A stretch of DNA of 64,000 nt from Peribacillus frigoritolerans (GTDB lineage Bacteria > Bacillota > Bacilli > Bacillales > DSM-1321), in assembly GCA_030562215.1 (NCBI GenBank), contig JAUPFL010000001.1, positions 2,592,501 to 2,656,500 of the forward strand, written 5' to 3'. The notes beneath the pieces were generated by a model. It had not been told where the DNA came from and searched no databases. It saw only the letters and a program-made list of their open reading frames with translations. Shown piece after piece: positions 715-61,064 of the stretch. Position 1 is the stretch's first letter. Each line of letters starts with the position of its first letter. Both the position numbers and the translations under genes were made by a program.

Positions 715-1928
715 TTACGAAAGGCTTTTGAATAGCCTTTTGGTAAATATGATGATGTATAGGATCAAAAACACAAGTGTTAAAATGGGGCCAATATCAA
801 GCATGCTTTGATATAGGGAATTCGCGTGTTCATCTGATCCGCTGACTGGGAATGCGTTTATCGGGTTGCCGCTGTACATTGTGCCTTTATAGAATGGTTC
901 CCAAAGCAGGACGGTAATAATGGATGCCAGAAGGCCATGTGCTATCCTAGCCAGAAAAAGGGAGTGAAACGAATGTCCGTTGCGGCAATGATGCTGGCAA
1001 CTTGCGCTTGAATGCTGAACCCATTGAAAGCTAAGATGAAACTTGTCATCACAGTTTGCTGAAAGAGTGTCGCCTCTTCGACCGTGCTGGTTAATTTTGA
1101 ACCTAGAGTCATTTCAAACATGCCTGATATGAAGGGGAGGCTTAAGGAATCGGGGAAATTAAAAATATGTAAAATTCCTCCGACCCCAGAAGCTAGCAAT
1201 CCGGTAATGTTCATATGAAATAAAAGCTTGTTCACCACAGAAAAGAGAATGATGAACCCCCGATCATCAATAGGGTTTGGATGGATGAGAGTACCGCATC
1301 TCCAAGTAAACTGCCAAATGGTCTTGTTTCTTTTATTCTGGTTCGATGCATTTGGCTAAAGGCTTGTCTTATGGAAGGGAGCTTGGTCAGTACTTTTGTA
1401 TGGGATTTTTCTTCTTTCCAACGGTAAAAACGCATGATGATGCCTACACAAAAATTTCTAGGTAATGGGAAAGCGCAAGGATGATCCCTAAATGAGGATT
1501 GTGGAAAAAACCAACGGCAACGGCTACGAACAGGAACAATGGATTGGATGAATTAGTAAAACAAACGAGTCTTTCAGCTTCAATGCGGGTCAATTGTTCT
1601 TCCTGACGAAGCCTTACAGTGAATTTCGCCCCGGCTGGAAATCCTGATGCAAGTCCCATTGCCCAAACGAAACCACCCACTCCTGGTACACGGAATAAGG
1701 GACGCATAAATGGTTCGAGCATGACACCAATGAACCTGACAACCCCAAAACTGATTAATAACTCCGAGAAAATCAAGAAAGGTAAAAGCGAAGGGAAAAC
1801 AATTGTCCACCAAATATTCAGTCCGCTTTTGGAAGCTTCAAAGGATTCTTGGGGAAGATGATCAAGCCAACTGCCATCATCGTGACGGAGGTAGCTAACA
1901 GTACTGTTTTAGATTTTGATTTTAGCAA
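715..1928 (-). CDS. ylbJ: ylbJ: sporulation integral membrane protein (four frameshifts)
   Basis: Polytopic membrane protein of the YlbJ family, known in B. subtilis as a SigE-dependent protein needed for heat-resistant spores. The TTG at 1926-1928 is the best start because an AGGAGG-type site (rc near 1935-1942) sits just upstream. As sequenced, the frame breaks at about 1851-1854 (G run), 1450-1454 (A run), 1257-1261 (C run) and 955-959 (A run). Each break is repaired by adding one base to the run. The repaired protein is about 405 residues, close to the 408 of B. subtilis, and has several hydrophobic helices with nucleoside-transporter-like gate features. It converges on coaD and diverges from ylbK. 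Confidence 0.88.
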
Positions 1929-2233
1929 AATTCAGCCTCCTCTTGAAGGTTACTAAATAAGGGCAGTTCGTTTCGTATATAATAAAATATGAACTTCTTT
2001 TTCTCGAAAAGTAAGCGCATGATGGAATAAGGATTGTACCGACATGTAAAGAAGATGTTCTGTACAATGGAATTTCAATGCAGCCCTTCACTTCATTGGC
2101 TACATGGTTTATATTTGCCATGCTTGTTTCACTGTCAATATAAATAATATGCTTCTATAAATCCGTTTAAGACCATAACTTTGAATGAGTGTTATTTCAA
2201 TATTTTGAATTAGTTAAAGCGGGAGGGATATCT
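1929..2233. other. Intergenic region between divergent ylbJ and ylbK
   Basis: About 300 bases with no credible gene. It should hold the promoters of both divergent genes. AT-rich stretches such as TATATAATAAAATAT near 1976-1990 are present, but I could not assign a convincing -35/-10 pair on either strand. Confidence 0.5.
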
Positions 2234-3031
2234 TTGTCGAAACCAAAGGTCGGGCTTGCACTTGGGTCAGGAGGAGCTAGGGGGTTTGCACATATTGGCG
2301 TGATAAAGGTATTGCAGCAAGAAGGCATTCCGATAGATATGATTGCTGGAAGCAGCATGGGAGCTATGGTTGCAGCCTTTTATGGAGCGGGGTCGGATAT
2401 CGAGAGGCTCTATAAGTTGTCCCGTGCATTTAAGCGAAAGTATTATTTGGACTTCACCATACCTAAGATGGGCTTCATTTCGGGTAAACGGACAAAGGAT
2501 TTAATCAGGGTATTTACATATGGCAAGAAATTTGAAGAACTTGATATTCCTGTGGCGGTGGTCGCCACTGATATAAAAACGGGGGAAAAAGTCATTTTTC
2601 AGGAAGGCCCCATCGCACCGGCTGTAAGGGCAAGCATCTCCATTCCAGGCATTTTCATTCCCGAAAAAATCGGAAACAGACTGCTTGTTGATGGCGGTGT
2701 TGTTGACAGGGTTCCTGTTTCAGTCGTGAAGGATATGGGAGCAGACATCATTATTGGTGTGGATGTAGCCCACGTGAAACAGGATATGGAGATAAACTCC
2801 ATTTATGACGTCATCATGCAAAGCCTCGATATCCTGCAAATGGAGCTGGTTAAAAGCAGGGAGTTTGCTTCAGACGTCATGATACGCCCCAGGGTTGAGA
2901 AATACAGCTCGAAATCATTTACAAACGTACAGGAAATAATTAGTATTGGAGAAGAAGCTGCAAGAGGTAAGATAGATCAAATTAAGCAGAGCATTGTTAC
3001 TTGGAAGGAGTCCTTTGAAGATGAGCCGTAA
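2234..3031 (+). CDS. ylbK: ylbK: patatin-like phospholipase family protein
   Basis: Predicted serine acyl hydrolase of the patatin/RssA family; the substrate in Bacillus is not established. Seen in the 265-residue product: the oxyanion-hole glycine motif GSGGARG at 11-17, the nucleophile elbow GSSMG at 39-43 with Ser41, and the catalytic Asp in DGG at 153-155. The TTG at 2234 is chosen because GGGAGGG lies 7 bases upstream and the protein then matches the usual length of about 260. Its 3' end overlaps the ylbL start by 11 bases, so the two are co-translated. No signal peptide is visible. Confidence 0.93.
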   Translation: MSKPKVGLALGSGGARGFAHIGVIKVLQQEGIPIDMIAGSSMGAMVAAFYGAGSDIERLYKLSRAFKRKYYLDFTIPKMGFISGKRTKDLIRVFTYGKKFEELDIPVAVVATDIKTGEKVIFQEGPIAPAVRASISIPGIFIPEKIGNRLLVDGGVVDRVPVSVVKDMGADIIIGVDVAHVKQDMEINSIYDVIMQSLDILQMELVKSREFASDVMIRPRVEKYSSKSFTNVQEIISIGEEAARGKIDQIKQSIVTWKESFEDEP

Positions 3032-4046
3032 AATGTATGTACGCACTTTCCTGGTGGTGGCTATACTTCTCATAGCATCAGCCCTTTATTCCCTACCTTT
3101 TTATGTGTCAAAACCAGGAATGGCTAAAGAATTGGAGCCAATCATTGAGGTATCCGGAGGAGATGAAGCAAAAGGAAGCTTTATGTTAACCACTGTAAGG
3201 ATGGGCCGGGCGAATATATATTCCTACATGCTGGCGAAGTGGAGCAAATATCAGGAGCTTTATCCGGAAACATCCATCCGAACCGAAGATGAAACAGATG
3301 AAGAATATAATATCAGGCAGCTCCACTTGATGGATGGCTCTAAAAATAATGCCATTAAGATCGCATATGAAAAAGCAGGGAAAGAAGTCGAATACGAGTA
3401 CCTGGGTGTATATGTTTTGGACGTGCTAAAAGGAATGCCGGCAGCTAAAGAGCTGAAAGCGGGCGATCAAATCATTCAGGTTGATGATGTTAAATTCAAG
3501 TCCGCACAGGAATTCATGGACTATATTAACGGAAAGAAGGCCGGAGATGAAGTTAAAATAGTCTATAAGCGGGAAGAGACAGAGAAAACGGCCGTTCTTT
3601 CATTGCAGCCATTTAAAAATGACCCAAATAGGGTAGGAATCGGCATTTCGCTGGATGATAATCGAAAAGTGACCACTAAACCAGCGATTGCCATAGATTC
3701 AGAACAAATAGGCGGTCCTTCGGCTGGTTTAATGTTTTCATTGGAAATTTATAATCAATTAACCAAAGGTGATCTTACAAATGGATATGACATAGCGGGT
3801 ACGGGAACGATGTCCGATGATGGGACAGTCGGTCCAATTGGCGGAATTCAACAGAAAATAGTTGCAGCCGATAAGTCTGGAGCCGAAATATTCTTTGCCC
3901 CGAATGAAAACGGAGCAGCAGGTTCGAATTATGAAGATGCACTCATTGCAGCAAAGGATATTGACACCGACATGAAGATCGTGCCGATTGACACCTTTGA
4001 AGATGCAATAACCTATTTAACGAAGCTAAATGGAAAAGAAAATTGA
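3021..4046 (+). CDS. ylbL: ylbL: membrane-anchored PDZ-Lon-type serine protease
   Basis: In B. subtilis YlbL degrades the SOS division inhibitor YneA and so helps checkpoint recovery. The 341-residue protein has an N-terminal membrane anchor (about 8-28), a PDZ domain (about 125-190) and a C-terminal Lon protease domain. The Ser234-Lys279 dyad is visible (GGPSAG and QQKIVAAD) at the same positions as in the B. subtilis enzyme. The ATG at 3021 follows GGAG and overlaps the ylbK stop. The catalytic domain should face the outside of the membrane. The frame is intact and a terminator follows. Confidence 0.96.
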   Translation: MSRKMYVRTFLVVAILLIASALYSLPFYVSKPGMAKELEPIIEVSGGDEAKGSFMLTTVRMGRANIYSYMLAKWSKYQELYPETSIRTEDETDEEYNIRQLHLMDGSKNNAIKIAYEKAGKEVEYEYLGVYVLDVLKGMPAAKELKAGDQIIQVDDVKFKSAQEFMDYINGKKAGDEVKIVYKREETEKTAVLSLQPFKNDPNRVGIGISLDDNRKVTTKPAIAIDSEQIGGPSAGLMFSLEIYNQLTKGDLTNGYDIAGTGTMSDDGTVGPIGGIQQKIVAADKSGAEIFFAPNENGAAGSNYEDALIAAKDIDTDMKIVPIDTFEDAITYLTKLNGKEN

Positions 4047-4140: not shown

Positions 4141-5343
4141 TCATTTGAAAATGATGGGAGATTCATATTCCCGTTTCATCAATGCGGCTTGATACGGTTC
4201 GGACAAGCCCAGTGCATATACCTGTGCTGCTCTCAAGTCCGTATCGATGTCCTGCTTCCGATAGGACGAAAGTTTAGAGATGAGCGGGAGGGGCAAGCCT
4301 TTTTTACAGAGCCAAGATATTCTTGTCCCCGGCCATTCATGCCGAGAAGTCTGATATAGGCTGGTTGGTCATTGTGAATCACCTGTTCCTTTAATGTATG
4401 GGTCAATATATGGACACACATCCGCTGTAGCCGTGTCCATGTATAGCGTTTTGTCTTAAGCGCTGCCATGAACCCAGTAAAGCTCGAAGATTGGTTGGCC
4501 ATCTCCTTTATTCGGTGTTCTATGCCTTCCTCAATTTCGTATATTGCTGCCAATTCGGTTAAAGAGGAGGAAAGGATACGGTATTTCAACATGGACCAAT
4601 ACATTTCCCAGTCATGCAAGGCATGGTAGTGCATTAAATATTTTTCAAGACCACTCAACGTCGCTTGTGGAATATAGCTGGAAACAGAATTTAAATCCTG
4701 ATGTTCATGGATGGCTTTACGTATCCCAGTTGCGCTGGCAATAGGGTCTTTGGACAACTTTGTTTCATGGTATCCGGCAGCGACCCTTTGAATCGTATAA
4801 GGGCGAATGGAGTAGCCGTTTGAAAGGGCAGCACTTACATATTCCTTTCAAGGATATTATTCGGCTTCGTCAAATCCAATGCCGCATCATCATTGATGAT
4901 CGAACGATAAGCCTGGGCAGCACTTGCCGGATAACTATTACCGGCATCCATGGCCGATTTAATTGCGGCATCGAATGCAGCGGAATTATCCGAAAGAATT
5001 CTGTGGGCGGTGATGAATGGTTCAATTTTGCCATCCTCGCTTCCGAAGCAAAAGGAGTCACAGCCAAGGGATTCCAAAAGAGCGATAGATCCTTTTGCAA
5101 ATATTTCCGCCTTCTGTGTCGCGAAAGCATAGGGCAGCTCAATGACAAGGTCTATGCCGCCATTCAAGGCCATTTCGGCACGTGTCCACTTGCTGACGAT
5201 AGCGGGCTCGCCACGCTGTAAGAAGGGTCCGCTCATAACAGCGACAATAACATCTGCCCCTGTTTTTCTCTACTTTCTCTCGCATGTAAAACATGTCCAT
5301 TGTGAAAAGGGTTATATTCGACTACTAAACCGCAAGCTTTCAT
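4141..5343 (-). CDS. tmcAL: tmcAL (ylbM): tRNA(Met) cytidine acetate ligase (three frameshifts)
   Basis: Forms N4-acetylcytidine at the wobble base of elongator tRNA-Met from acetate and ATP. The ATG at 5341-5343 begins [17 protein letters not shown], which contains the nucleotidyltransferase ATP-binding motif HNGH. The frame breaks at about 5263-5267 (T run), 4845-4852 and 4300-4305 (T run). Restoring one base at each gives a continuous protein of about 401 residues, against 415 in B. subtilis. It ends at the TGA complementary to 4141-4143. The gene converges on ylbL and diverges from yceD, as in Bacillus. Confidence 0.9.
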
Positions 5344-6084: not shown

Positions 6085-6147
6085 TTGGAACGAAAAATCG
6101 TTAATCGATTTTTCCAGCTTTTTTATATTTTTAAGGAGGTGGGAATA

Positions 6148-6320
6148 ATGGCTGTACCTTTTAGAAGAACGTCGAAAACTGTAAAAGAAAACGTCGTACG
6201 CACTTCAAGCTTCAAGTACCTGGTATGGTAGAATGCCCGAGCTGTGGTGGAATGACTCTTTCACATCACGTTTGTAAAGAATGTGGAACATATAAAGGAA
6301 AAGAAGTTGTCGCAAAATAA
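6148..6320 (+). CDS. rpmF: rpmF: 50S ribosomal protein L32 (frameshifted)
   Basis: L32 is a small zinc-ribbon protein of the large subunit. AAGGAGGTGGG precedes the ATG at 6148. The first 13 codons read [13 protein letters not shown], then the frame is lost at the AAAA run at 6183-6186. One extra A restores a 57-residue protein with two cysteine pairs (CPSC and CKEC) that bind zinc, followed by [11 protein letters not shown]. Without the repair the frame stops at about codon 25. A broken L32 gene in an otherwise ordinary chromosome is unlikely, so this points to a sequencing error. It is too short and broken to appear as a simple open frame. Confidence 0.93.
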
Positions 6321-7232: not shown

Positions 7233-7311
7233 TCATTACACGCTCTATATACCTTCTATCTTTCCTAGCATGTGCATATTATGAATTAAAACTTGCTAAG
7301 GAGGTAGAGAG

Positions 7312-7931
7312 ATGACGATTGCGAGACAAGATGCATGGACTCATGATGAGGATCTGTTGTTGGCTGAAGTGGTACTAAGGCATATACGAGAAGGCAGTAC
7401 ACAATTAAAGGCGTTTGAAGAAGTGGGGAAACAGTTATCGAGGACATCTGCTGCTTGTGGGTTCCGTTGGAATTCATTTGTCAGGAAGCAATATAAATCA
7501 GGGATAGAGCTGGCGAAAAAACAAAGGAAAGAACAGGCAGTCAATAATCCTGAAGTGGAAAGGGATTCGGTTGCAGCGGTGGAAAATGTCATGATTGAAG
7601 AAAAAAGCCCGAGCATGAAGATAAAGAATCTATTACCCTTCAGGAAGTTATATTATATTTAACCAAAATGGATGAATTCTTTCAGCTTGATAATAAGGAA
7701 AAGGAACGGATTTCTGAGCGGTCCCTATTTCTTGAACGGGAAAATGTCCGATTACTGGAAGAGAATGTCCTGCTTAAGGAAAACCTGAAAGCTGTTGAGG
7801 AAGATTATCGTGCGTTAATGCAGATCATGGAGCGTGCAAGAAAACTTAGTGTGCAAGAGGACGAAAAGGCGAATCCGAAGGTGAGTTTTCAAATGGATAA
7901 GAATGGTAATTTGGAAAGGGTCAATAAATAA
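7312..7931 (+). CDS. rsfA: rsfA (ylbO): prespore-specific transcriptional regulator (frameshifted)
   Basis: RsfA family regulator, expressed under SigF in the forespore of B. subtilis and modulating SigF-dependent genes. The N-terminal Myb/SANT-like domain (about residues 1-65: W-T-HDEDLLLAE through CGFRWNSFVRK) should bind DNA. The C-terminal part is a coiled coil rich in Glu, Leu and Lys. AAGGAGGTAGAGAG precedes the ATG at 7312. The frame breaks at about 7619-7623. Adding one G gives a 206-residue product, against 193 in B. subtilis. It converges on ylbP. Confidence 0.9.
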
Positions 7932-8927: not shown

Positions 8928-9829
8928 ATGAGAATTGGAATCATTGGCGGAGGGGCCATAGGGCTGCTGTTTGCGTCTCATTTAAGTGAAAAACATAATG
9001 TGACTCTATATACTCATACCTCGGAACAGGCGTCCATCATCCAACGTGATGGAATCCGCCTTATTGAGGATGGTGAAAGCCGACTGCTGACAGGCATCAT
9101 TTCTAAGGGGCTGGATGAAGGGATATCGGATGTGGATCTTCTTATAATGGCCGTCAAGCAATATCACCTTCCGCAAATACTGCCTAGGATCAAAGGCATT
9201 CAGGTTCCATTGCTATTCTTGCAGAATGGCTATGGGCATATTTCTTATTTAAAGCAGCTTCAATCCCCAACCATATATGTGGGGGTAGTGGAGCATGGAG
9301 CATTGAAACATGATGGGAATACCGTGGAGCATACGGGGCTCGGCATTACAAAGGTTGCTTCCTATAAAGGGGAACTTGAGCAACTATCGTTATTGAATGA
9401 AAGGATCGATCATTTTCCTTTTAAGATGAGTGAAGATTTTCACTCGATGCTGATGGATAAACTTGTCGTCAATGCAGTGATAAATCCATTAACGGCGATA
9501 CTTAATGTGGAAAATGGCGGTTTAATCACTAACTCTTTTTACTACCAATTATTTCAAGAACTTTTTGAGGAAATCTCAGTATTTTGGAAATTCAAAATAA
9601 GGCTGAGTCATTTGAACATGTGAAATCCGTTTGTATGGCAACTGCGGAAAATCGATCGTCAATGCTAAAAGATTTAGAAAATGGCCGTAAAACGGAAATT
9701 GATGCTATTTTGGGTCATATCCTCTCGGAGGCAAAGAGTAAAGGGAAAAGTGGTTGCCTGACGTCTTCTCTATATAAGATGGTCAAAGGAAAAAGAGTCT
9801 CAGGGGGGATGAGGATGTGCCGTACGTAG
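8928..9829 (+). CDS. panE: panE (ylbQ): 2-dehydropantoate 2-reductase (frameshifted)
   Basis: Reduces ketopantoate to pantoate with NADPH in pantothenate/CoA synthesis. The Rossmann dinucleotide motif GGGAIG is at residues 7-12 and the ketopantoate-reductase C-terminal helical domain follows (LMDKLVVNAVINPLTAIL with the conserved Lys and Asn). GGAAGG precedes the ATG at 8928. The frame breaks in the T run at 9582-9585. Adding one T joins the two halves into about 300 residues (298 in B. subtilis). Its end overlaps the next gene by 13 bases. Confidence 0.92.
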
Positions 9830-10207
9830 TTTCAAGCCTTGCCGCGATATTTATTACCTTGCCATTCGTAGGGTATATACTTTTTTATAGGGGCCAAACA
9901 ATTCACTGGAAACCATCGGCGCTCCGTTCAATTTGCAATGGACATGAGTACGCTGCTGTTCGTATTATCCGTTCATTATTTGATCATTACGATTTGGGAT
10001 ATGCAAATTCTTTGGGTGATCATGCTCATCATGCTCATCAACGCATTCGTGGTGGTTCTTGTCCATTACAAGGTAAAAGAAGAAATCATTTTCCATAAGG
10101 TATTAAAGGGTTTTTGGAGAGTGAACTTCGCCTTCTTTTTTGTGGCTTATCTATTATTATTTTCAATTGGAATAATTACAAGTATTACGAAGGTATTGAC
10201 TACATAA
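9817..10207 (+). CDS. DUF3397-type small membrane protein (frameshifted)
   Basis: About 129 residues after repair, with four hydrophobic segments and a short basic loop (KQFTGNHRRS). Proteins of the DUF3397 family sit between panE and bshC in several Bacillaceae, which supports the call; their function is unknown. The start is taken as GTG 9817, with AGGGGGGATGAGG just upstream. The frame changes at the six-T run at 9881-9886. Removing one T, the opposite direction to most breaks here, gives a continuous protein. Confidence 0.72.
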
Positions 10208-10316: not shown

Positions 10317-11942
10317 ATGGAGATGAAAGATCTCGCGTTACCATCTTTAAACCGTTTTGCATCGGACTATTTACAAAACCGTCTCGAAACGGAGGATTAT
10401 TTTCACTATGACTTGTCTAAGCCTGACATTTATCTCAATAGGCATAATGAATTGATGAACCGTTCTTTTTCACGTGATGAATTGTCGGATTACATACAAC
10501 AATACATGTCTCGTCTTTCATTCAGTGAGGCAGTTAAGGGGAATATTGAAAGGTTGCGCAGGGATGATTCCGTGGTTGTGATCGGAGGACAGCAGGCTGG
10601 GTTATTATCAGGGCCGTTGTATACCATTCATAAAGTGATATCGATCATTAAACTTGCGGAAGAACAGGAAAAGAAACTGGGGCAGCCAGTCATTCCAGTT
10701 TTTTGGATAGCTGGGGAAGATCATGATTTGGCTGAAGTCAATCATGTTTATGTTATGAAAAACGGAAAACCAGATAAAAAAACCTATCCTTCCTACCAGC
10801 CATATAAAACAATGGTTTCTGATGTGGAGCTGGAAACGGAAAAGGCAGAGAAGTGGCTTGAGGAAATCATTGAAACATATGGAGAAACGGAATTTACGAA
10901 CAAACTCCTGATTGATATGAAGGAAACCATTAGGAAATCGAATACCTTTGTCGATTTCTTCGCCGAGCTGATTCATGAATGGTTCAAAGAATATGGCCTT
11001 TTACTAGTCGATGCCGGAGATCCGGATTTAAGGCGAATTGAGAAGGCATACTTTGAATCGATGGTCAATGAAAGTGGACGGATTGCTGAAGTGGTCGAGG
11101 AACAGCAATCATTCATGCATGCGAAAGGGTATGCAAAAATGATTGAAATGGATAAACGGGCAGCTAACTTATTTTATTATGATCCAGAAAAAAGATCGAT
11201 GTTTACTCGAACGTGTAGAAGGCGGTTTCAGCGGAAAAAACGGTGAGGTAACATTTACCGGGGAGGAACTCTTGCAGATAGCCAAAAATCATCCAGAACG
11301 ATTAAGCAACAATGTCATTACACGCCCGCTCATGCAGGAAATGCTCTTCCCTGTATTGGCTTTCGTTTCTGGGCCAGGGGAAATAGCCTATTGGGCAGAA
11401 TTAAAAAGGGTGTTTGAGTTGTTTTCCATGAAGATGCCGCCAATCATTCCTAGGTTAAACATCACGCTGGTGGAGCGGAGTATCCACAGCGACCTAGAAG
11501 AAATGGAACTCAGTTTGGAAACTGTTCTGACTGAAGGAACCGCTAATGCTGTGGAAAGTTACCTTGATTCCGTTAAAGATGAAACGATTGACACTCTGTT
11601 CGGGACGCTGAAATCACAGCTTGAAGAGAACCATGAAAAGCTTTTTGTCCACGCTGTCTCTTTAGATAGAGGACTTGAGCCGATGTTGAATAAAAACATT
11701 GAATTCATTCAAAAGCAATTGAATTTCATATATGGCAAAATCGGTGACCGTACAAAGGAACGACATTCGGTCATATTGAAAAATATGACCGGATAGCAAA
11801 TTCACTGTACCCTCTCGAATCACCCCAGGAGAGGATTTGGAATGTGTTTTATTACTTGAATCAATACGGGCCGGAGTTCGTACGGGATATGATGAAACTG
11901 GACTATCGGTTCAATAATCAGCATAAATTGATTTTCATTTAG
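10317..11942 (+). CDS. bshC: bshC: bacillithiol synthase, cysteine-adding enzyme (two frameshifts)
   Basis: Adds cysteine to glucosaminyl-malate, the last step of bacillithiol synthesis; bacillithiol is the main low-molecular-weight thiol of Bacillales. Recognisable motifs include the nucleotide-binding-like VVIGGQQAGLLSGP (about residues 87-100) and FWIAGEDHD (about 136-144), with HWIAGEDHD-type conservation across BshC. The ATG at 10317 follows AAAGGGAG. One A must be removed at 11188-11193 and one A added at 11779-11783. The result is 541 residues against 539 in B. subtilis. The C-terminal 50 residues lie beyond the second break. Confidence 0.93.
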
Positions 11943-12766: not shown

Positions 12767-13699
12767 ATGTTTCAACATACAACAGTGTTATTAAAAGAGA
12801 CGGTTGATGGATTAAACATCAAACCTGATGGAATTTATGTGGATTGTACTTTAGGAGGAGCCGGTCACAGCGAATACTTACTTTCACAGCTCTCTGACAA
12901 GGGAAGGCTTTATGCTTTTGATCAGGACGAAACGGCGATTCGGAATGCTAAGGAAAAATTGGAAAGCTATGGCGAACGTATTGTTCTTGTTTCTAATAAT
13001 TTTAAATACTTAAAAGAAGAGTTGAATGCCCGGGGAATCGAGAAAGTGGATGGGATCCTTTATGATTTAGGTGTGTCATCTCCACAATTGGATACACCGG
13101 AGCGTGGTTTCAGCTATAACCATGATGCGCCTTTGGATATGAGGATGGACCAAAGTGCTGCCATTTCTGCCTATGATGTCGTGAATACTTGGTCATTCCA
13201 TGATTTGCTGAGGATTTTCTTCCAATATGGAGAAGAAAAGTTTTCGAAACAAATTGCCAGGAAAATTGAAGCGGCACGTGAAATAAAACCGATTGAAACG
13301 ACGTTCGAGCTTGTGGAATTAATCAAGGATGGGATACCGGCCCCGGCAAGGCGTAAAGGCGGACACCCTGCGAAACGAGTGTTCCAAGCAATAAGAATCG
13401 CTGTGAATGACGAACTTGGTGTCTTTGAAGATTCCTTGGAGCAAGCCATATCGCTTTTGGATAAAGAGGGAAGAATATCTGTCATTACATTCCATTCGCT
13501 TGAAGATAGAATATGTAAAACGGTATTTAAAAAGGCCAGTAGCATGCCGGATCTTCCGCCAGGACTTCCAGTTATCCCGGATGAATTCAAGCCAACTATG
13601 AAAATAATTACGAGAAAACCGATTTTACCTTCAGAAGAAGAATTGGAAGGGAATAATCGTTCCCGGTCGGCTAAGCTAAGAATTGCCGAAAAGCAATAA
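12767..13699 (+). CDS. rsmH: rsmH (mraW): 16S rRNA cytidine(1402)-N4 methyltransferase
   Basis: Methylates C1402 in the decoding centre of 16S rRNA with S-adenosylmethionine. The 310-residue protein has the methyltransferase motif [10 protein letters not shown] near residue 30, the conserved [11 protein letters not shown] near 100 and the [12 protein letters not shown] segment near 200. The ATG at 12767 is preferred over the in-frame ATG at 12758, because GGAAGG would overlap the latter and lies 8 bases from the former. It lies 52 bases after mraZ and is intact. Confidence 0.96.
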
Positions 13700-13724
13700 T
13701 TACAAAAAAACAGTGAGGGGGAAC

Positions 13725-14084
13725 ATGAATGAGTTCCATAGCCAAAAAGTGCAAGAACAGCAATATGAAGACCAACAGCAGCAACAGACACATCAAACAG
13801 TGGTCATCCGTAAAGCGAAGATATCCATTGGTGAAGTTTTCTTACTATGTGCCCTTGCTATCATGGTTACCTTTATGGGAGTGAAAATAGTCTCTAATCA
13901 AGCGGCCATCTATGAAACGAATAAAGAAATCCAGCTAGTGGAAACTTCGATTGAAGAACAGGGTAAAGTGAATGATGATTTGAAAGTGCAGGTTGCTGAA
14001 CTTAGTACATACGAAAGAATTTGGAAAAAAGCTGCAGCGCTAGGGTTCAAGCTAAATGAGAATAATGTGAAGGGTGTGCAGTGA
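13725..14084 (+). CDS. ftsL: ftsL: cell division protein FtsL
   Basis: Bitopic membrane protein of the divisome that forms a trimer with DivIB and DivIC and activates the septal synthase. The 119 residues show a Gln-rich cytoplasmic start, one membrane helix (about 45-65, GEVFLLCALAIMVTFMGV) and an extracellular coiled coil with heptad-like spacing. The ATG at 13725 follows GTGAGGGGG. It lies between rsmH and pbpB as in all Bacilli. Sequence conservation is low, so the call rests on topology and position. Confidence 0.93.
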   Translation: MNEFHSQKVQEQQYEDQQQQQTHQTVVIRKAKISIGEVFLLCALAIMVTFMGVKIVSNQAAIYETNKEIQLVETSIEEQGKVNDDLKVQVAELSTYERIWKKAAALGFKLNENNVKGVQ

Positions 14085-14086
14085 TA

Positions 14087-16237
14087 ATGCAGAAACAAAA
14101 AATATGAAGCATGGGGCAGCCGGATTATTCTTCTTATTCGGCCTGCTCTTTTTGTGTTAGTCTGCCGCTTTTTGTATATTCAGGTGACAGGTACAGCAGG
14201 CGGGGAGGTATTGGCTTCGAAAATCGACAAGAAATATGAAAAAAACAGGTCATAGAAGCAAAAAGGGGAAGCATACTCGATACAAAAGGTGAAGTCATTG
14301 CCGAGGATACTTCCTCCTATATCTTAAGGGCAGTACTTAGTGAAAAGGAGCCGGAGCATGTTAAGGATCCGGAGATGACCGCTAGTAAGCTTGCTAAATA
14401 TATCGACATGGATGAACAGGACATCTATGAAAGACTTACGAAAAAAGGGGCATACCAGGTGGAATTTGGCAGCGCCGGCAAGGATTTGACTCAGGTCTTA
14501 AAGCAGAAAATAGAAAAATTGGAACTGCCGGGAATTACATTTGGAAGAACCAATAAACGTTTTTATCCTAACGGAATTTTCGCCTCCCATCTGATTGGCT
14601 ATGTTGAAAAGGATGAAGAAACGGGAGAAATGGCTGGTAAGTTCGGCATCGAAAGGTACCTCAATAAAGAATTGCAGGAAACGGATGGGAAACTGACATA
14701 TGACAGTGACTCATGGGGCTTCCTCTTACCGGATAAGAAGGAAAAGGTTGTTGCTCCTGATAATGGCAATGATGTCATGCTTACGATCGATAAGAAAATA
14801 CAAACGTTCCTGGAAGACTCGATGAGCAAAGTGCAGGAAAAATACGATCCCGAACAAATCATAGCGATTGTCTCCAATCCCAAAACGGGGGAGATTGTGG
14901 CGATGGGGCAAAGGCCTACCTTCCATCCGACAACGAAAGTCGGGCTTACGGATACATGGCGTAACCTGGCTATTGAAGAAACCTTCGAACCGGGTTCAAC
15001 CATGAAAACATTCACCCTTGCGGCGGCTGTTGAGGAAGGGGTCTTTAATCCGAATGAAAGCTTTGTGGCTGGAACCTACAAAGCCGGATCGGGGAAAATC
15101 GGAGATCATAGCGGAATCGAAAGAGGTAAGAGCATGACCTTTCTTGAAGGGGTTCAACGTTCCTCGAACGTCGCTTTTGCCACACTTGCAATGGATAAGA
15201 TAGAGCGGATACTTTCCGTGAGTATTTGACTAAGTTCGGATTTGATAAAAAACGGGAATTGACCTGCCGAACGAGATAACCGGTAAAATTCAATACAAGT
15301 ATAAGCTTGAAAAAGTTACTACTTCCTTTGGACAGGGTTCGACCGTTACACCGATTCAACAAATCCAAGCTGCATCCGCAATAGCCAATGATGGAAAAAT
15401 GATGCGGCCGTACGTGATAAAAAGCATTTCCGATCAGGATACCGGAAAAATATTGAAAACGACTAAGCCGAAAGTGACAGGGCAACCGATTTCGACAGAA
15501 ACTGCAAAACAAGTACGTGATTATTTGGAAACGGTAATTTCCGCGAAAAAAGGAACAGGGAAAAATATGCCATTGATGGTTATGAAGTAGCAGGAAAAAC
15601 CGGTACTGCACAAATTGCGGGTCCGACAGGTAGATATTTAGAAGGGAAAAATAACTATGTGTTCTCCTTTTTAGGAATGGCTCCAAAAGATGATCCGCAG
15701 TTGGTCATGTATGTGGCGGTCAAACAGCCAAAGTTAGGTGTATCTTATGTTGGGGCTGATCCATTGTCAGAGATATTTAATCCTGTCATGCAAAATAGCC
15801 TGCAATATCTAAACATAAAACCTTCCGAGGTTAAAAAACAAAAAGCAAATAAAATCGTGGACTATACGAATCAAACCGAGAGTTCAGCTGTCAAAGAACT
15901 GAAGGAACTTGGTTATGATGTAAGTACGATCGGAAGTGGGCGTAAAGTGCTCGATCAATCCCCGAAAGCGGGGAGTATACTTTTACAGGGTGAAAAGATA
16001 ATCCTCAGGACGGAAGGTGAAATGGAAGTTCCTGACATGAAGGGATGGTCACTGCGCGATGTCATGAAATTGGCCAAGGTTGCAAAACTGGATCTGAAAA
16101 CCAAAGGTACTGGATACGTAAGTAAACAGAGTCTTGAGGCCGGGAAAAAGGTTAATGAAGGAGAGACCTTCAATATTGAATTATCCCAGCCAGATGGAGC
16201 CGGAGAAGATATACCGACAAAAGAGAAAACAGAGTGA
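14087..16237 (+). CDS. pbpB: pbpB: penicillin-binding protein 2B, septal transpeptidase (six frameshifts)
   Basis: Essential class B PBP that cross-links septal peptidoglycan in complex with FtsW, FtsL and DivIB. An N-terminal membrane anchor is followed by the PBP dimerisation domain, the transpeptidase domain (STMK nucleophile near 14998, SSN near 15163, KTGTA near 15600) and two PASTA domains. Single bases are missing at about 14096-14101, 14149, 14243, 15203, 15249-15254 and 15560-15564. Repair gives 718 residues, against 716 in B. subtilis. The first three breaks would remove the whole N-terminus, so no truncated form would be functional. Confidence 0.93.
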
Positions 16238-16349
16238 AGGTAAAGAGGGGATCCAAATGGATCCCCTCTTTATTTCTTTCAAAGTTTATAGTCTAGCATC
16301 GAGTAGACAAGCATATATTGAAGCATGTATGAAATGGAGGTGCCTGTTT

Positions 16350-33403: not shown

Positions 33404-33439
33404 TTTTTTGTACAGCGCTCCTGTGAGGAGGGAATAATT

Positions 33440-35596: not shown

Positions 35597-35598
35597 CA

Positions 35599-43319: not shown

Positions 43320-44015
<696 letters not shown>

Positions 44016-44191: not shown

Positions 44192-45480
44192 ATGGAAGAA
44201 ATGAAAAGGGACATCGTACTGGATGTCGAGGACGTGCCAAAGGCTGGCCAGTGGATTACGTTAAGCATCCAGCATTTGTTCGCAATGTTCGGTGCAACGG
44301 TGCTGGTGCCATTTCTGGTAGGATTAAGCCCGGCGGTAGCACTGGTTTCAAGCGGGTTGGGCACACTTTCATACTTATTGATAACGAAAGGTCAGATACC
44401 AGCTTATCTCGGTTCATCTTTCGCTTTCATTACACCAATCATCGCGGCTAAGGCTTTAGGAGGTCCGGAAGCGGCCATGATCGGCTGTTTTGCGGCAGGG
44501 TTCATATATGGGATTGTAGCTTTGATCATCCAAAAAGTCGGATTGCGCTGGTTAATGAATATACTTCCTCCGGTTGTGGTGGGTCCGGTGATTATCGTAA
44601 TCGGATTAAGCCTTGCCGGAACGGCAGTGGACATGGCAATGTATGATCCACAAGATAAATACAGCGTCACATATATAGTTATAGCGCTGATCACATTAGC
44701 GGTAACCATCATCTGCAACGTGTTCTTCAAGGGATTCATTAACTTGATCCCCATTTTAATGGGAATCATAGTGGGCTACGGCTGTTCGGCTGTTGCAGGA
44801 ATAATAGATTATGAACCGATCAAGGCAGCAAAATGGTGGGAAATGCCTGAATTCATGTTTCCGTATGTAACCTATACACCGTCCTTCTCATGGGAAGTCA
44901 TTGCCATCATGGTACCGGTTGCCATCGTAACTTTATCAGAACATATCGGACACCAGATGGTACTGAGCAAAGTGGTAGGTAGGAACTTTTTGGAAAAACC
45001 AGGTTTGCATCGCTCAATTTTAGGAGATGGCGCAGGAATCATGATTGGTTCCTTCATCGGTGGGCCGCCGCTGACTTCATATGGTGAAAATATTGGGGTC
45101 CTGACAATGACTAAGGCGTACAGTGTGTATATCATCGGAGGGGCAGCATTGACTGCAATCATCTTTGGCTTTAACGGTAAGATTTCAGCAGTCATCAGCT
45201 CGATACCTACAGCTGTGATGGGCGGCATTTCCATCTTGCTCTTCGGTATCATCGCTTCAAGTGGATTAAGGATGCTGATTGATAATAAGGTCGACTTTGA
45301 CAAAAAAGAAACCTGATGATAGCTTCAGTCATCTTGGTGTTAGGAATCGGAGGAGCGTTCGTACAACTATCGGAAACGGTATCGCTTTCCGGAATGGCAC
45401 TTTCAGCCATCGTCGGAATCCTTCTTAACTTGATTCTTCCGGACCGGGAAAAAATATCCGGAGATATATTTGGAAAGTAA
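44192..45480 (+). CDS. pyrP: pyrP: uracil permease (frameshifted)
   Basis: NCS2-family uracil:proton symporter with about 12-14 membrane helices. Family motifs are seen, including SLAGTAVDMAM, the SEHIGHQ segment with its Glu, and GGPPLTSYGENIGV. GAGGGGGATACG precedes the ATG at 44192. One A is missing from the run at 45302-45307. Without it the protein stops at 374 residues and loses the last two helices. Repair gives 429 residues (435 in B. subtilis). Confidence 0.95.
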
Positions 45481-47864: not shown

Positions 47865-48967
47865 AAAGACAGCTAATTTTAGAAGACGGGACAGTATTCC
47901 ATGGGGAAGCATTCGGTGGGGACGTAGAAAAAATCGGTGAGGTCGTTTTTAACACAGGGATGACGGGATACCAGGAGATTCTATCCGATCCATCGTATTG
48001 CGGTCAAATCGTTACACTTACGTACCCATTAATCGGGAACTACGGGATAAACCGTGATGACTTCGAATCCATCAATCCAGCGATAGCAGGATTCGTCGTT
48101 AAGGAAACGGCAGAACTTCCTTCCAACTGGCGAAACCAATTATCGCTTGATGAATATCTGAAAATGAAGAACATACCTGGAATAAGCGGAATCGATACGA
48201 GAAAGCTGACAAGAATCATCAGGAAATCAGGTGCACTTAAAGGGGCGCTCTGCAATATCAACAAAGATGCAAATGAAGTGGTTTCCCAGTTGAAAGCAAC
48301 GGTGATACCTTCTAATCAAGTGAAACAGGTTTCAACAAAAGCACCTTATTCCAGTCCGGGCAGAGGCCCGCGGGTAGTCCTTGTAGACTATGGCATGAAG
48401 CATGGGATTTTACGTGAGTTGACGAAGCGCGGCTGTGATGTCGTGGTTGTGCCTTATAACGTCACGGCCGAAGAAGTGATGCAATATCATCCGGATGGCG
48501 TGATGCTTTCAAACGGTCCTGGAGATCCGAAAAGTGTTCATGAGACGCTTGAAATGATCCGTTCAATCCAAACGCAAGTGCCATTATTCGGAATCTGTTT
48601 AGGACATCAATTATTCGCACTTGCAAACGGGGCGGATACGACAAAATTGAAATTCGGCCATCGAGGTTCGAATCATCCGGTTAGGGACCTTCGTACCGGA
48701 AAGGTATCCATCACATCTCAAAATCATGGATATACAGTTGAAGAGCTTTCCATAGAAAGTACAGATCTTATTGTGACGCATACAGCATTGAATGACGATA
48801 CGATTGAAGGTCTGCGCCATAAAAAGTATCCAGCGTTCACCGTACAATATCACCCGGAAGCATCACCAGGTCCAGAAGATGCCAACTACTTATTCAATGA
48901 ATTCTTACAAATGATTGAAGCTGCAACCAACAAGGGGGAAAAAACATGCCAAAACGCACTGATATAA
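47861..48967 (+). CDS. pyrAA: carA (pyrAA): carbamoyl-phosphate synthase small chain
   Basis: Glutaminase subunit, 368 residues. The class I amidotransferase domain has the nucleophile FGICLGHQ and the catalytic His in [10 protein letters not shown]. The first half is the CPSase small-chain domain ([11 protein letters not shown]). It starts inside the last codons of pyrC and overlaps pyrAB by 22 bases. Pyrimidine-specific copy, as it lies in the pyr operon. Intact. Confidence 0.97.
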
Positions 48968-51900
48968 AAAGCATCCTAGTAATCGGTTCCGGTCCGATCG
49001 TCATCGGACAGGCCGCCGAGTTCGATTATGCAGGAACCCAAGCGTGTATAGCCTTAAAAGAAGAAGGCTATCGAGTGATCCTGATTAACTCTAATCCTGC
49101 GACAATCATGACAGACACTGAAATGGCTGACGCGGTTTATATCGAACCGATCACATTGGAATTTGTCAGCAAAATCATTCGTAAAGAGCGCCCGGATGCA
49201 CTGTTACCTACCTTGGGCGGACAGACTGGCTTGAACATGGCCGTTGAGCTTGCCGAATCAGGAATCCTGGAAGAATGCAATGTCCAGATTCTTGGGACAA
49301 AACTATCGGCAATCCAACAAGCGGAAGACCGTGACCTTTTCCGTACGCTAATGAACGATCTTGGGGAACCGGTGCCTGACAGCGACATTATTCATAACTT
49401 GGAAGAGGCTTATACATTCGTTGAACGAGTCGGCTATCCGGTCATTGTTCGACCTGCCTTCACGCTTGGCGGAACAGGCGGTGGGATTTGCGATAACGAA
49501 GAGCAGCTGATCGAGATTGTTGAGGGTGGCCTGAAAAGCAGCCCGGTTCACCAATGTCTGCTTGAGAAGAGCATTGCCGGTTTCAAAGAAGTGGAATATG
49601 AAGTGATGCGTGATTCCAATGATAATGCAATAGTCGTTTGTAATATGGAAAACTTCGATCCTGTCGGTGTCCATACAGGCGATTCAATAGTTGCCGCACC
49701 AAGCCAAACATTAAGTGACAGAGAGTACCAAATGCTTCGTAATACGTCTCTGAAGATTATCCGTGCCCTGAAAATTGAAGGTGGATGTAATGTTCAGCTT
49801 GCGCTAGATCCGAACAGCTATCAATATTATGTCATTGAAGTGAACCCAAGGGTCAGCCGTTCATCGGCACTTGCTTCAAAAGCGACTGGATATCCAATTG
49901 CAAAGCTTGCAGCAAAGATAGCCGTTGGTTTGACGCTCGATGAAATGATGAACCCTGTCACTGGCAAAACCTATGCCAGCTTTGAACCGGCACTGGACTA
50001 TGTCGTTACGAAAATTCCGCGCTGGCCTTTCGATAAGTTCGAAAGCGCCAACCGTAGGCTCGGTACCCAAATGAAGGCGACCGGAGAAGTCATGGCAATC
50101 GGCCGTACATTTGAGGAATCAATTTTAAAAGCTGTCCGTTCCCTTGAAGCGGGTATATACCATCTTAATTTGAATGACGAGTTTGAGGATGGAAAAATAG
50201 AGAAACGGATCCGAAAAGCGGGAGATGAACGGTTATTCTATATCGGTGAAGCGTTAAGAAGGGGAAAAACGATTGAAACCATCCACGAATGGAGCCAGAT
50301 CGATTTATTCTTCTTGCATAAGTTGAAAAAGATAATCGACTTTGAAAAGCAGCTAAAAGAACATTCTTTTGATTGTGAAGTATTGCAAAAGGCTAAAGAA
50401 CTAGGGTTTTCTGACAAAACGATCGCCGAAATATGGGGAGTTCCCGAAATTGATGTCTATGAATTCCGGAAACAGCAAGGAATCATCCCTGTTTACAAAA
50501 TGGTTGATACATGTGCTGCCGAATTCGAATCGGAAACACCGTATTTTTATGGGACATACGAAGATGAGAATGAATCCATCGTTACTGACAAGAAAAGTGT
50601 CATTGTCCTGGGATCAGGCCCAATTCGGATCGGGCAAGGAGTAGAGTTTGATTATGCGACCGTACACTCGGTATGGGCCATTAAGGAAGCGGGATATGAA
50701 GCGATCATCATCAACAACAATCCCGAAACGGTTTCAACGGATTTCAGTATCTCCGACAAACTTTATTTCGAACCATTGACTATTGAAGATGTCATGCATG
50801 TCATCGATTTGGAAAAACCGGAAGGGGTCATCGTCCAGTTTGGCGGACAGACGGCAATCAACCTTGCAGATGGTCTTGTTGAAAGAGGAGTGAAGATCCT
50901 TGGTACTTCCCTTGAAGACCTGGATAGGGCGGAAAATCGCAATAAATTCGAAAAAGCACTTAAGGATTTAGGCATTCCGCAGCCAAAGGGCAAAACTGCA
51001 ACATCGGTTGATGAAGCGATCGTCATCGCTGAAGATATTGGTTACCCGGTTTTAGTAAGGCCATCGTATGTTCTCGGAGGAAGAGCGATGGAAATCGTCT
51101 ATAAACAAGAAGAATTACTGCACTACATGAAAAATGCCGTGAAAATAAATCCGGATCATCCTGTCCTGATAGACCGCTACTTAACGGGTAAGGAAATCGA
51201 AGTAGATGGTATTTCCGATGGTGAAACGGTCGTGATCCCTGGAATCATGGAGCATATCGAACGCGCTGGCGTCCATTCAGGTGATTCAATTGCAGTTTAT
51301 CCGCCGCAAAACTTAACGGAAAAACAAAAAGAAGTAATCATCGATTATACGACCCGATTGGCAAAAGGCTTGAATATAATTGGTCTCTTGAACATTCAAT
51401 ATGTCATCAGCAATGAAGAAGTGTATGTGATTGAGGTAAATCCACGTTCAAGCCGAACCGTTCCATTCTTAAGTAAAATTACGAATGTGCCGATGGCTAA
51501 CCTAGCCACGAAGGTCATCTTTGCCACACGCTTGAAAGCCAAGGTTACAAATCGGGGTTAGTGCCAGAACAAACTGGGGTCTATGTGAAAGTGCCGGTCT
51601 TCTCTTTTGCAAAATTAAGAGGTGTGGACATCTCACTCGGACCTGAAATGAAATCGACCGGTGAAGTAATGGGGAAAGATAGCACCCTTGAAAAAGCTTT
51701 ATATAAAGGGTTGGTCGCTTCCGGTTTCAAGATCAAGGGACATGGTTCGGTGTTATTGACGATATCTGATAAAGATAAGCAAGAAGCGCTTCTTTTAGCT
51801 AGGCGTTTCCATAATATCGGCTTCAAGCTGATAGCCACCAGCGGAACTGCTGCCCTATTGGAGCAATCCGGGATCCCGACTGCGATCGTCGGAAAAATTG

Positions 51901-52147
51901 GCGAAGAAGGTACAAACCTGCTAGATGTCATCCGGAACGGGGAAGCGCAATTTGTCATAAATACTTTGACAAAAGGTAAGCAGCCGGCCCGGGATGGTTT
52001 CAGAATCCGACGTGAATCGGTTGAAAATGGAGTGACATGCCTAACATCACTTGATACGGCAGAAGCCATTTTAAGAGTGATAGAATCCATGACCTTCTCG
52101 GCAGAAGCAATGGGAAAAACGGAAAAAAGTCGTGAGGTGAGCTATAT

Positions 52148-52151
<4 letters not shown>
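48946..52151 (+). CDS. pyrAB: carB (pyrAB): carbamoyl-phosphate synthase large chain (frameshifted)
   Basis: Synthase subunit with two ATP-grasp halves and a C-terminal MGS-like allosteric domain. [15 protein letters not shown] in half one and [15 protein letters not shown] in half two are visible. One G is missing near 51544, in the second ATP-grasp half; as read the frame stops at 51561. Repair gives 1068 residues (1071 in B. subtilis). The ATG at 48946 follows GGGGGAAA. The stop overlaps the pyrK ATG (ATGA). Confidence 0.96.
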
Positions 52152-54544
<2,393 letters not shown>

Positions 54545-54551
<7 letters not shown>

Positions 54552-56947: not shown

Positions 56948-57357
56948 TCTATTTTTACTTCCTTTACATAAGATTTTCTAAGAACTCATTTTTGCCGGGC
57001 GTTATAAATCGATCGGGGCTGCCCATTTTAGTTAATCACAATTTTTAGCGAACTGGGTGAAAGCAGGAGTTGCAGTTCAGTGAATGGATTCTTTTTTTAT
57101 TTCCTGATATTTATTCAAAATTGGTCCATTCCATGATTACAGTTCGTTCATTCAAAAAATTAACCGGATCGTTCTTCTTTCCGCAATTCTGTTTAATTAT
57201 AGCATTATTTTGGACGAGTCTGAATAATCATGGAAGAAGAGCAGGTTGTTTTATGTATCGGTAAGCAGGCAGGTGTTGGGTGAGTAAAGCAAAAAGCGCC
57301 TGTTGAGATGTATACAGGAGCCTATTTCATTCTATTCAAAGGGATGTGTGATACTTG
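56948..57357. other. Intergenic region between divergent rqcH and the P-ATPase gene
   Basis: About 400 bases without a convincing coding frame. It contains the rqcH promoter and a short hairpin near 57296-57323 (GCGCCTGT/ACAGGAGC). No repeat or RNA gene is recognised. Confidence 0.55.
57196..57224 (-). promoter_or_regulatory. Extended -10 SigA promoter for rqcH
   Basis: On the minus strand TTCAGA (57224-57219), 17 bases, TATAAT (57201-57196) with an upstream TG (extended -10). Confidence 0.6.
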
Positions 57358-60033
57358 ATGGAGTTCAGGGAAATGAATAATCAAGAAATGGAGAAAGCGC
57401 TTCAAACAAACGTTACACACGGTTTGGACGATGATGAAGTAAAGGACAGGCTGCGAAAGAATGGTTTTAACGAATTGAAGGAAGGAGAAAAACAGTCAGC
57501 CATTCTTTTATTTTTCGCCCAATTCAAAGATTTCATGGTCATTGTTTTACTTGCCGCGACATTGGTCTCCGGGATATTGGGTGAATATATCGATGCGATT
57601 GCCATCATGGCGATTGTTTTTTTGAATGGATTACTTGGTTTTTTTCAAGAACGGAAGGCAGAAAAATCCTTGGATGCCTTAAAGGAAATGGCTGCACCTC
57701 AAGTTAACGTGCTTCGAGATGGCCAGTGGCTGAAAATCCCATCGAGAGAAGTTGTTGTAGGGGATATCCTGAAGTTTTCGAGCGGTGACCGTATTGGTGC
57801 CGATTTACGGATCATCGACCATTCAAGCCTTGAAATAGAAGAGTCGGCACTTACCGGCGAGTCACTCCCGGCCGTTAAATGTTCTGATCCATTGATGAAT
57901 GAGGTTGAAGGTATCGGTGATCAGGAAAATATGGCGTTTATGGGAACGATGGTGACAAGAGGGAATGGAGTCGGAATCGTAATCGCTACAGGAATGAATA
58001 CGGCGATGGGGAAGATTGCGGATCTCCTGCAGACCGCAGAAACAAAAGAAACACCGCTTCAACGGAGGTTGGAGCAGCTGGGCAAAATTTTGATCGTCAC
58101 GGCTTTAATATTAACTGTAATCGTGGTCCTGACTGGTGTCATTCAAGGACATGACCTTTATACGATGTTTTTAGCCGGGGTATCTTTGGCAGTTGCGGCG
58201 ATTCCGGAAGGCCTGCCGGCCATTGTGACCGTAGCCTTGTCTTTAGGTGTTCAGCGTATGATCAAACAAAAAGCGATTGTCCGCAAACTTCCCGCCGTAG
58301 AAACGCTTGGCTGTGCAACGGTGATTTGTTCAGATAAGACAGGTACACTGACACAAAACAAAATGACGGTGACGAAGGTTTGGAGTGGGGGAAAACTTGG
58401 GATGTCGGTGGTTCTGGTTACAATCCGGTCGGAGAGTTTTCTTTAGAAGGAGTTTCAGTTGCCCCGAAAAACCATAATGCCTTGCTTCAAATAATTACAT
58501 TCGGCATGCTCTGTAATAAAGCTGAGTTAAAGGAGAATGGTAAACAATATATTTTAGACGGTGATCCGACAGAAGGGGCGATGTTGGTCGCGGCAATGAA
58601 AGCGGGATTGACGAGGGAACACCTATCTAAGAGGTTTACGATAGTGAAGGAGTTTCCATTTGACTCTAGCCGTAAAATGATGAGTGTCATTGTGAAGGAT
58701 GATAAAGATAATCATTTCGTTATCGTAAAAGGTGCCCCGGACGTATTGATCGCCCAGTCCGACACGATTCTTTGGGAAGGAAGGTCGGAAATATTAAATC
58801 GGGAGAGTAAGGAAAGGGTGCAACAGGACATGAATGGGCTTGCATCGCAGGCACTTAGAATGATTGCTGTGGGTTATAAACCTCTTTCAAAAGGAACGAT
58901 TTTGCTGCATGAAACCGAAGCAGAGCGCAATTTGACCTTCATGGGACTGCAGGGCATGATCGATCCCCCGCGTCCGGAGGTGAAGCAGGCAGTTAAGGAA
59001 TGCCGGGATGCCGGGATCAAAACTGTCATGATTACAGGCGACCATGTAATAACCGCAAAGGCAATTGCTAAAGACCTCGGAATTTTAAAAGGAAAAGACC
59101 GTGTACTTGAAGGACGGCAATTGGCGGACATGGAAGTCGGGGAACTTGAGGAAGTTGTTGAAAGTGTTTCGGTATTTGCCCGCGTTTCCCCGGAACATAA
59201 GTTAAAAATCGTAAAAGCCTTGCAAAATAAAGGGCATGTTGTTGCAATGACAGGGGATGGTGTCAATGATGCCCCTGCGATAAAATCAGCCGATATTGGT
59301 ATATCCATGGGCATCACGGGGACTGATGTCGCTAAGGAAGCTTCTTCCTTGATATTGGTTGACGATAATTTTGCCACAATTAAATCAGCCATAAATGAAG
59401 GCAGGAATATTTATGAAAACATCAGGAAGTTCATCCGTTATCTGCTAGCATCCAATGTCGGGGAGATTTTGGTCATGTTTTTGCGATGCTATGTGCCTTG
59501 CCATTACCTTTGATACCAATCCAGATCTTATTCGTGAACCTTGTAACTGACGGACTGCCTGCGATGGCATTGGGCCTAGATTCCGCAGAAGAAGATGTAA
59601 TGAAAAGAAATCCAAGAAATGCTAATGAAGGTGTTTTTGGAAGAGGGCTTGGCTGGAAGATCATCTCACGTGGTTTTCTGATCGGGGTTTCTACATTGAT
59701 TGCATTTTATGTTGTATATCGTGCAAATCCGGATAACCTTGCTTATGCACAAACGATTGCGTTCGCTACCTTGGTCCTGGCTCAGCTTATACATGTATTC
59801 GATTGCCGAAGTGAACGTTCGATCTTCTCGAGAAATCCATTCGGTAACCTTTATCTAGTGGGGGCGGTGATATCCTCCCTATTATTGATGGTAGCCGTCA
59901 TGTATGTACAGCCTTTACAAACAATCTTTCATACGGTACCGATTTCGGGCAGGGATTGGTTATTAGTAATAGGAATGGCATCCATTCCAACTTTTTACTG
60001 GCTGGAACCTTTTTAGCAAGAAAAGCACAATGA
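57358..60033 (+). CDS. yloB: yloB: P-type Ca2+-transporting ATPase (three frameshifts)
   Basis: SERCA-like P2A ATPase; in B. subtilis YloB is a Ca2+-ATPase of sporulating cells. Seen in order: the actuator LTGES, the Ca-site helix AAIPEGLPAIV, phosphorylation motif SDKTGTLT and the hinge GDGVNDAPA. One A is missing near 58393-58396, one T at 59479-59483 and one T at 59992-59996. The repaired length is 892 residues (890 in B. subtilis) and it ends at the TGA at 60031-60033. The ATG at 57358 is in frame behind a TTG at 57355. Confidence 0.94.
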
Positions 60034-60088: not shown

Positions 60089-60105
60089 GTAGTATTTTAT
60101 TTGTG

Positions 60106-60139
60106 AGCTAAAGTTTTTGTACTTTAGCTAATATATAAT
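60106..60139 (+). promoter_or_regulatory. Inverted repeat next to a -10 element upstream of yloC
   Basis: AGCTAAAGT (60106-60114) and its exact complement (60121-60129) with a 6-nt gap lie just before TATAAT (60134-60139). It could be an operator at the yloC promoter; no good -35 is visible. Confidence 0.5.
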
Positions 60140-60189
60140 GAATGTTTAAGGCAAAATTACTACATTATGTTTTGATAGGATGTGGAACC

Positions 60190-61064
60190 ATGGTTACCAG
60201 TATGACGGGCTATGGAAGAGAAGAAGCGGAAAACGAACAGGTCAGGGTTTTTGCTGAAATCAAGACCGTGAACCATCGTTTTTGTGAATATATGATTCGA
60301 ATGCCGCGCCAGCTTTTGGTTTTGGAAGAAAAGGTGAAGAAGAAGGCGAATCAATACATAAGAAGGGGACGGGTGGAAATCTTCATTACAGTGGAAGGTG
60401 AGAGCCTTGTTTCCAAAAAGGTGAAGATCGATTGGGATCTTGCTGATCAATATGTGGGATTGATGGATGAAGTCAAGGGAAAATACAATCTGGAAAGTTC
60501 AATTACATTACAGGATATGCTGCAACTTGAATCGATTTTCATGACGGAAGAAGTACCCGCTGTTCCTGACGATTTGGAATCCCTGTTAATGAAGGCTGTC
60601 ACGGGGGCATTGGAAAATTTGAAAAAATGCGGAATCTGGAAGGTCAAGAACTTGCCTTGGACATGAAACGCCAGCTTGAAAAGTTTGGTGAGATTGTAGC
60701 AGGGGTCAAGATGCATGCACCTTCAGTCGTCGAAAAATATAAAGCCCGGTTGGAAATCAAACTGGGCGAGTTGACTGATGGATTGATAGAAGATAGCCGC
60801 ATTGTGACAGAAGCGGCAATTTTTGCTGATAAATGTGATATAAATGAAGAACTGACCAGACTCGATAGCCATGTACAGCAATTTTCAAGGACCCTTACCC
60901 ATAGTGAACCAATTGGAAGGAAACTTGACTTCCTTGTTCAGGAAATGAATAGGGAAGTCAATACGATTGGATCAAAGGCAAATGATTCGGCCATTACCAA
61001 AGAAGTGGTGGAAATGAAAAGTTTGCTTGAAAAATTGAAGGAACAGGTTCAAAATATCGAGTAG
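60190..61064 (+). CDS. yloC: yloC: YicC-family endoribonuclease-type protein (frameshifted)
   Basis: YicC/YloC family; YicC of E. coli was shown to be an endoribonuclease, and YloC is reported to cleave RNA. The N-terminal TSMTGYGR and EIKTVNHRFCE and the C-terminal DUF1732 (RLDSHVQQF; GRKLDFLVQEMNREVNTIGSK) are conserved. The ATG at 60190 follows AGGATGTGG. One A is missing at 60624-60629. Repair gives 291 residues, equal to B. subtilis YloC. It heads the run yloC-remA-gmk-rpoZ. Confidence 0.92.

Follow-up and report, generated by a model that had tools for sequence, protein, structure and literature searches.

Frame breaks in half of the conserved genes of a Peribacillus frigoritolerans genome stretch are best read as uncorrected assembly error, not gene decay

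How could a living bacterium carry interruptions in half of the conserved genes of one chromosomal stretch, essential ones included? This question is raised by 64,000 nucleotides of a Peribacillus frigoritolerans genome (GenBank assembly GCA_030562215.1, contig 1, JAUPFL010000001.1, positions 2,592,501-2,656,500), hereafter the window. A preliminary description, made from the letters alone, had counted about 48 single-base insertions or deletions (indels) in about 28 conserved genes and attributed them to the assembly rather than to gene decay. Comparison with close relatives leads us to the same answer. The breaks are almost certainly uncorrected consensus errors of a long-read assembly, whatever the platform, and as such they are a well-documented assembly artefact with no biological novelty.

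For comparison we used the corresponding 70-kb stretches of five relatives of the genus, each assembled as a single contig (G015, G024, G021, G019 and G001, about 95-96% identical). Substitutions amount to 40-46 per kb between the window and these relatives and to 23-48 per kb among the relatives themselves. A conserved set of 62 genes (57,471 bp), defined from G015, was aligned gene by gene with its counterparts. Window genes without a counterpart in the relatives, such as a tnpB-like element described below, and indels on which the relatives disagree were excluded before counting. In this set, 31 of the 62 genes carry 53 frame-breaking indels private to the window (51 affect a single base; 49 are deletions, 4 insertions), a density of about 0.9 per kb of conserved coding sequence, versus 0, 1, 0, 0 and 2 breaks in the same genes of G015, G024, G021, G019 and G001, respectively. 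In the window, 38 of the 62 genes still have an open frame that spans 90% or more of their G015 reference open reading frame (ORF), versus 61 or 62 in each of the four other relatives. The scale announced by the preliminary description is thus borne out, and the comparison with relatives that it had proposed as a check finds the breaks private to this assembly. The essential genes it named as interrupted (rpmF, pbpB, murE, murD, murB, ftsA and carB) all carry breaks in the gene-wise alignment. Among the four genes to which it had assigned an extra base, murE and sigE do contain an insertion, whereas the DUF3397 gene and bshC carry instead a two-base deletion, which changes the frame equally. 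The remaining insertions fall in the 2-dehydropantoate 2-reductase and YicC/YloC genes. These assignments were deduced by setting the number of events in each gene beside its net length change.

A stricter count over the whole window, genes and spacers together, retained only indels for which all five other genomes agree against one. It gives 48 private single-base indels for the window (41 missing and 7 extra bases), and 1, 14, 2, 3 and 4 for the relatives. Thirty-five of these breaks lie inside genes and affect 24 of them, while 24.6 would be expected under an even spread per coding base; the breaks are thus distributed along the DNA as random events would be. Five genes with reduced frames show no event in this count and do show events in the gene-wise alignment, probably because gap placement varied between pairwise alignments and the strict count missed them. 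One candidate flagged by the strict count, an ORF of 57 amino acids, was dropped, the gene-wise alignment having given no confirmation. The earlier statement that nearly every break concerns a homopolymer goes too far: of the 41 missing bases, 30 lie in runs of at least 4 bases in the relatives, and the other 11 lie in runs of 1-2.

The dependence on run length was measured on the window pooled with two further 40-kb regions, the dnaA and dnaI regions, by considering the 78,136 runs of equal length in the relatives compared. The window's assembly shortens 115 of these runs and lengthens 15, so that deletions exceed insertions here as they do among the frame breaks (49 to 4). For A/T runs, the shortened fraction is 0.0002 at length 1 and rises to 5/380 (0.013) at length 5, 20/140 (0.14) at length 6, 15/38 (0.39) at length 7 and 12/16 (0.75) at length 8 or more. 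G/C runs behave in the same way at smaller lengths, with 3/252 (0.012) shortened at length 4, 16/48 (0.33) at length 5 and 6/7 (0.86) at length 6. The control genome G021, given the same treatment, has 1 of 227 A/T runs of 6 or more shortened, and none of 60 G/C runs of 5-6.

This profile very probably points to an Oxford Nanopore pore of the R9 type. A pore sensing five or six bases together could not count a longer single-base run, and consensus building would then tend to leave A/T runs from about 6 upward, and G/C runs from 5 upward, one base short. We infer that accurate reads would never have been used to correct the shortened runs, and that the genes of the living cell are intact. Alternatively, the same uncorrected error could come from another long-read platform, for example older PacBio continuous long reads at low coverage. 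Three contigs for 5.4 Mb suggest long reads of some kind, and poorly polished PacBio assemblies also retain single-base deletions. The steep threshold at 6 for A/T and 5 for G/C fits better a pore reading about 5-6 bases at a time, so that this alternative, the most serious one, appears unlikely. Watson and Warr reportedly described in 2019 the homopolymer indels that remain in bacterial assemblies made from nanopore reads alone. According to an excerpt of another report, R9.4 base-calling proceeds in 5- or 6-mers and nanopore assemblies contain mostly false deletions, located at homopolymers of 2-8, a bias equal to that observed here (PMC12007338).

The damage recurs outside the window, as we verified on the dnaA and dnaI regions, 12 ribosomal RNA (rRNA) operons and rpoB. 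In the dnaI region 30 frame breaks affect 18 of 42 genes, and in the dnaA region 39 affect 22 of 43 (3 of 46 genes having been dropped, and some ORFs of 41-112 amino acids in this set being perhaps no real genes); three relatives have 0 or 1 break each in either region. As for indel density elsewhere in the assembly, the other check proposed by the preliminary description, these two regions show the same kind of damage as the window. A comparison of mean open-frame length (211-253 amino acids in four further stretches of this assembly, 208-600 in 12 stretches of three relatives) involves different regions, is weak and was not relied on.

Indels are also present in rRNA genes of this genome, in 6 of 12 16S copies, 12 of 12 23S copies and 6 of 11 5S copies, and none was found in the relatives' copies compared (8 16S, 5 23S and 4 5S). 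The 23S indels are spread over 24 sites, of which 15 are hit in a single copy, 8 in between 2 and 10 copies and one in every copy. Among the G/C runs, two of length 6 and one of length 5 are shortened in 6, 10 and 6 of the 12 copies, so that 23S run shortening obeys the same run-length law as the rest of the regions examined. As a separate observation, G024 and G021 contain partial 16S matches beside the full copies at several places (e.g. G024:C1:29120-30001).

Could the breaks be real, the strain belonging to a lineage that is degenerating or dependent on a host and in which true indels destroy genes? Breaks in half of the conserved genes would be compatible with such decay, which we nevertheless consider extremely improbable. 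Several genes elsewhere in the assembly are broken as well: the dnaA domain lies in a frame of 233 amino acids (versus 449-462), rpoB is divided into frames of 810 and 412 (versus 1193), gyrB, of 646 amino acids when whole, falls into three pieces, and the gyrB paralogue is likewise split. The search gave no other full copy of rpoB, gyrB, dnaA, ftsA or murD, all of which are broken, and ftsA and murD are intact in all 35 other genomes among the 36 Peribacillus genomes searched, its own included. The assembly, of 5,375,132 bases in three contigs, stays inside the size range of close relatives. Its completeness of 87.46%, versus 99-100% (rounded) in all 35 others, counts in favour of consensus error. 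The isoleucyl-tRNA synthetase gene of the window shares 95% protein identity with Peribacillus simplex VanAntwerpen02 and 99% with Bacillus sp. BA3, and is found at 91-97% DNA identity in 14 of the 35 other genomes. We regard the organism as an ordinary Peribacillus with an assembly that is the odd one out.

Selection gives the same picture. Private substitutions fall at third codon positions in 424 of 537 cases in broken genes and in 262 of 348 in intact ones; since the two shares match, the broken genes appear to be under normal constraint, as expected of working genes, and show no relaxed selection of the sort that decay would entail. Real indels are strongly filtered out of genes, as the relatives show, whereas here long runs are not detectably spared in genes relative to spacers: 22 of 92 coding runs (24%) and 8 of 23 intergenic ones (35%) are shortened (Fisher p = 0.30; with 115 runs, only a large difference is excluded). 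The indels in all 23S copies equally argue against decay.

A true hypermutator culture, for example one without mismatch repair, in which homopolymers had really shrunk, is just as improbable. Homopolymer indels are the spectrum expected of mutators of this type, and the private substitutions of the window (14.5-17.3 per kb) exceed the 5.0-12.9 per kb counted in four of the five relatives, a difference to which branch length also contributes. Yet G024, with a single frame break, has as many (13.5-18.4 per kb). Moreover, essential genes without a spare copy cannot all be lost, and the shortening, in one lineage, of 12 of the 16 A/T runs with at least 8 bases would require that selection be absent. 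Least probable of all is that the breaks are real and that, in this free-living Peribacillus, slippage of the polymerase or the ribosome at short runs restores the products of hundreds of frameshifted genes, including essential ones. In Blochmannia vafer, eight genes have frameshifts in A/T tracts for which transcriptional slippage may provide a rescue, according to an excerpt of PMC3017870. Here the number of genes speaks against it, the shortened runs include 22 of 55 G/C runs of 5-6 and 41 runs of 1-4, and spacers and rRNA genes are hit as well, the latter having no reading frame to rescue.

Some observations weigh against the attribution to consensus error, or at least limit it. Among the 115 shortened runs, 41 are only 1-4 bases long; because G021 also has 11 of that length, part of these short-run differences may be true or belong to another type of error. 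A methylation-linked cause was considered for them, and inspection by eye of the 41 contexts brought out no obvious palindromic motif, G-rich words of the GGGGA and CTCCCC type being enriched. The controls are not at zero either: G024 accounts for the 14 private single-base indels mentioned above, 11 of which are extra bases, yet its 62 conserved genes show a single frame break. The comparison of genes with spacers is small, and its point values are unequal. In 23S, all 12 copies lack one A near base 1220 that lies outside any run, inside an inverted repeat, and that all 5 copies of the relatives have; either base-calling fails there systematically or the lineage truly differs. Finally, the platform and the polishing history are deduced from the error profile. 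All in all, assembly error remains well supported by the private nature of the indels, the run-length law, the hits in rRNA genes and other regions, the state of essential genes and the normal selection acting on the broken ones.

The broken genes are listed in Table 1. Their names were assigned via the intact proteins of the relatives, and pbpB via its position and its penicillin-binding protein family.

Table 1. Conserved genes of the window with private frame breaks (window coordinates; breaks from the gene-wise alignment)
Gene	Position	Strand	Frame breaks	Remark
spore_ylbJ family gene	715..1928	-	4	
nucleotidyltransferase family gene (NF010191)	4141..5343	-	3	
rpmF (ribosomal protein L32; Ribosomal_L32p)	6139..6320	+	1	
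RsfA family regulator	7293..7931	+	1	
2-dehydropantoate 2-reductase family gene	8928..9812	+	2	
DUF3397 gene	9817..10207	+	1	
bshC	10317..11942	+	2	
ftsL	13683..14084	+	1	span is the longest open frame, 97% of reference
pbpB-position penicillin-binding protein	14087..16237	+	6	
spoVD	16257..18270	+	2	
murE	18429..19902	+	1	
murD	20971..22321	+	2	
spoVE	22473..23578	+	1	
murB	23933..24840	+	1	
FtsQ/DivIB gene (divIB/ftsQ)	24963..25753	+	1	
DUF881 gene	25710..26437	+	1	
second DUF881 gene	26503..27249	+	2	span is the longest open frame, 96% of reference
DUF1290 gene	27188..27552	+	1	
ftsA	27817..29113	+	2	
sigE	32571..33289	+	2	3 in the whole-window count
sigG	33371..34218	+	1	
YlmC/YmxH family gene	34447..34715	+	1	
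pgeF	34771..35596	+	2	
YggS family gene	35575..36268	+	2	
pyrR	43461..44015	+	1	span is the longest open frame, 90% of reference
NCS2 nucleobase transporter (uracil permease position)	44192..45480	+	1	NCS2 above cut-off, uracil permease model below
carB	48946..52151	+	1	
dihydroorotate dehydrogenase electron transfer subunit	52148..52926	+	1	presumably pyrK
pyrF	53677..54551	+	1	
calcium P-type ATPase gene	57355..60033	+	3	
YicC/YloC family gene	60138..61064	+	2	

Two features of the window lie apart from these counts. The interval between spoVE and murB (23579-23932), where murG lies in B. subtilis, has only about 354 bases, not enough to hold murG; no search for this gene was made elsewhere. 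At 30420-31362, about 0.94 kb resembles tnpB of the IS200/IS605 family, two of six plasmid matches being annotated as tnpB, and its two open pieces have no Pfam match. The element is also present in G021 (92% identical) and was not found in the corresponding 70-kb stretches of G015, G024, G019 and G001; its stop-to-stop frame reaches 281 residues in G021 versus 139 at most in the window.

No biological consequence follows from the breaks, which serve as a caution about this assembly. Gene absence, pseudogene counts, completeness and protein trees derived from it are unreliable, and any other finding of a broken gene in this genome should first be weighed against the run-length rule.

Among known systems, Blochmannia, an insect endosymbiont, resembles the window in having homopolymer indels within conserved and even essential genes. 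As described in the excerpted part of that report, they concern eight genes genome-wide and A/T tracts, in an AT-rich genome where tracts of at least 9 bases are numerous (PMC3017870), whereas the window has breaks in 31 of 62 genes, at G/C runs and outside runs, in a genome whose rRNA genes are hit too. With nanopore-only bacterial assemblies, we see no difference of substance. In excerpts of the respective reports, an unpolished nanopore assembly had 664 of 2116 genes affected and carried indels in copies of 16S (PMC8306402), R9.4 assemblies retained 151-5298 pseudogenes after polishing with Racon and Medaka (PMC8011154), and the gain of R10.4 over R9.4.1 was largely due to homopolymer calling (PMC9262707). 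Taken with PMC12007338, these excerpts describe what this assembly displays: single-base false deletions that dominate and centre on homopolymers, split genes and affected rRNA copies.

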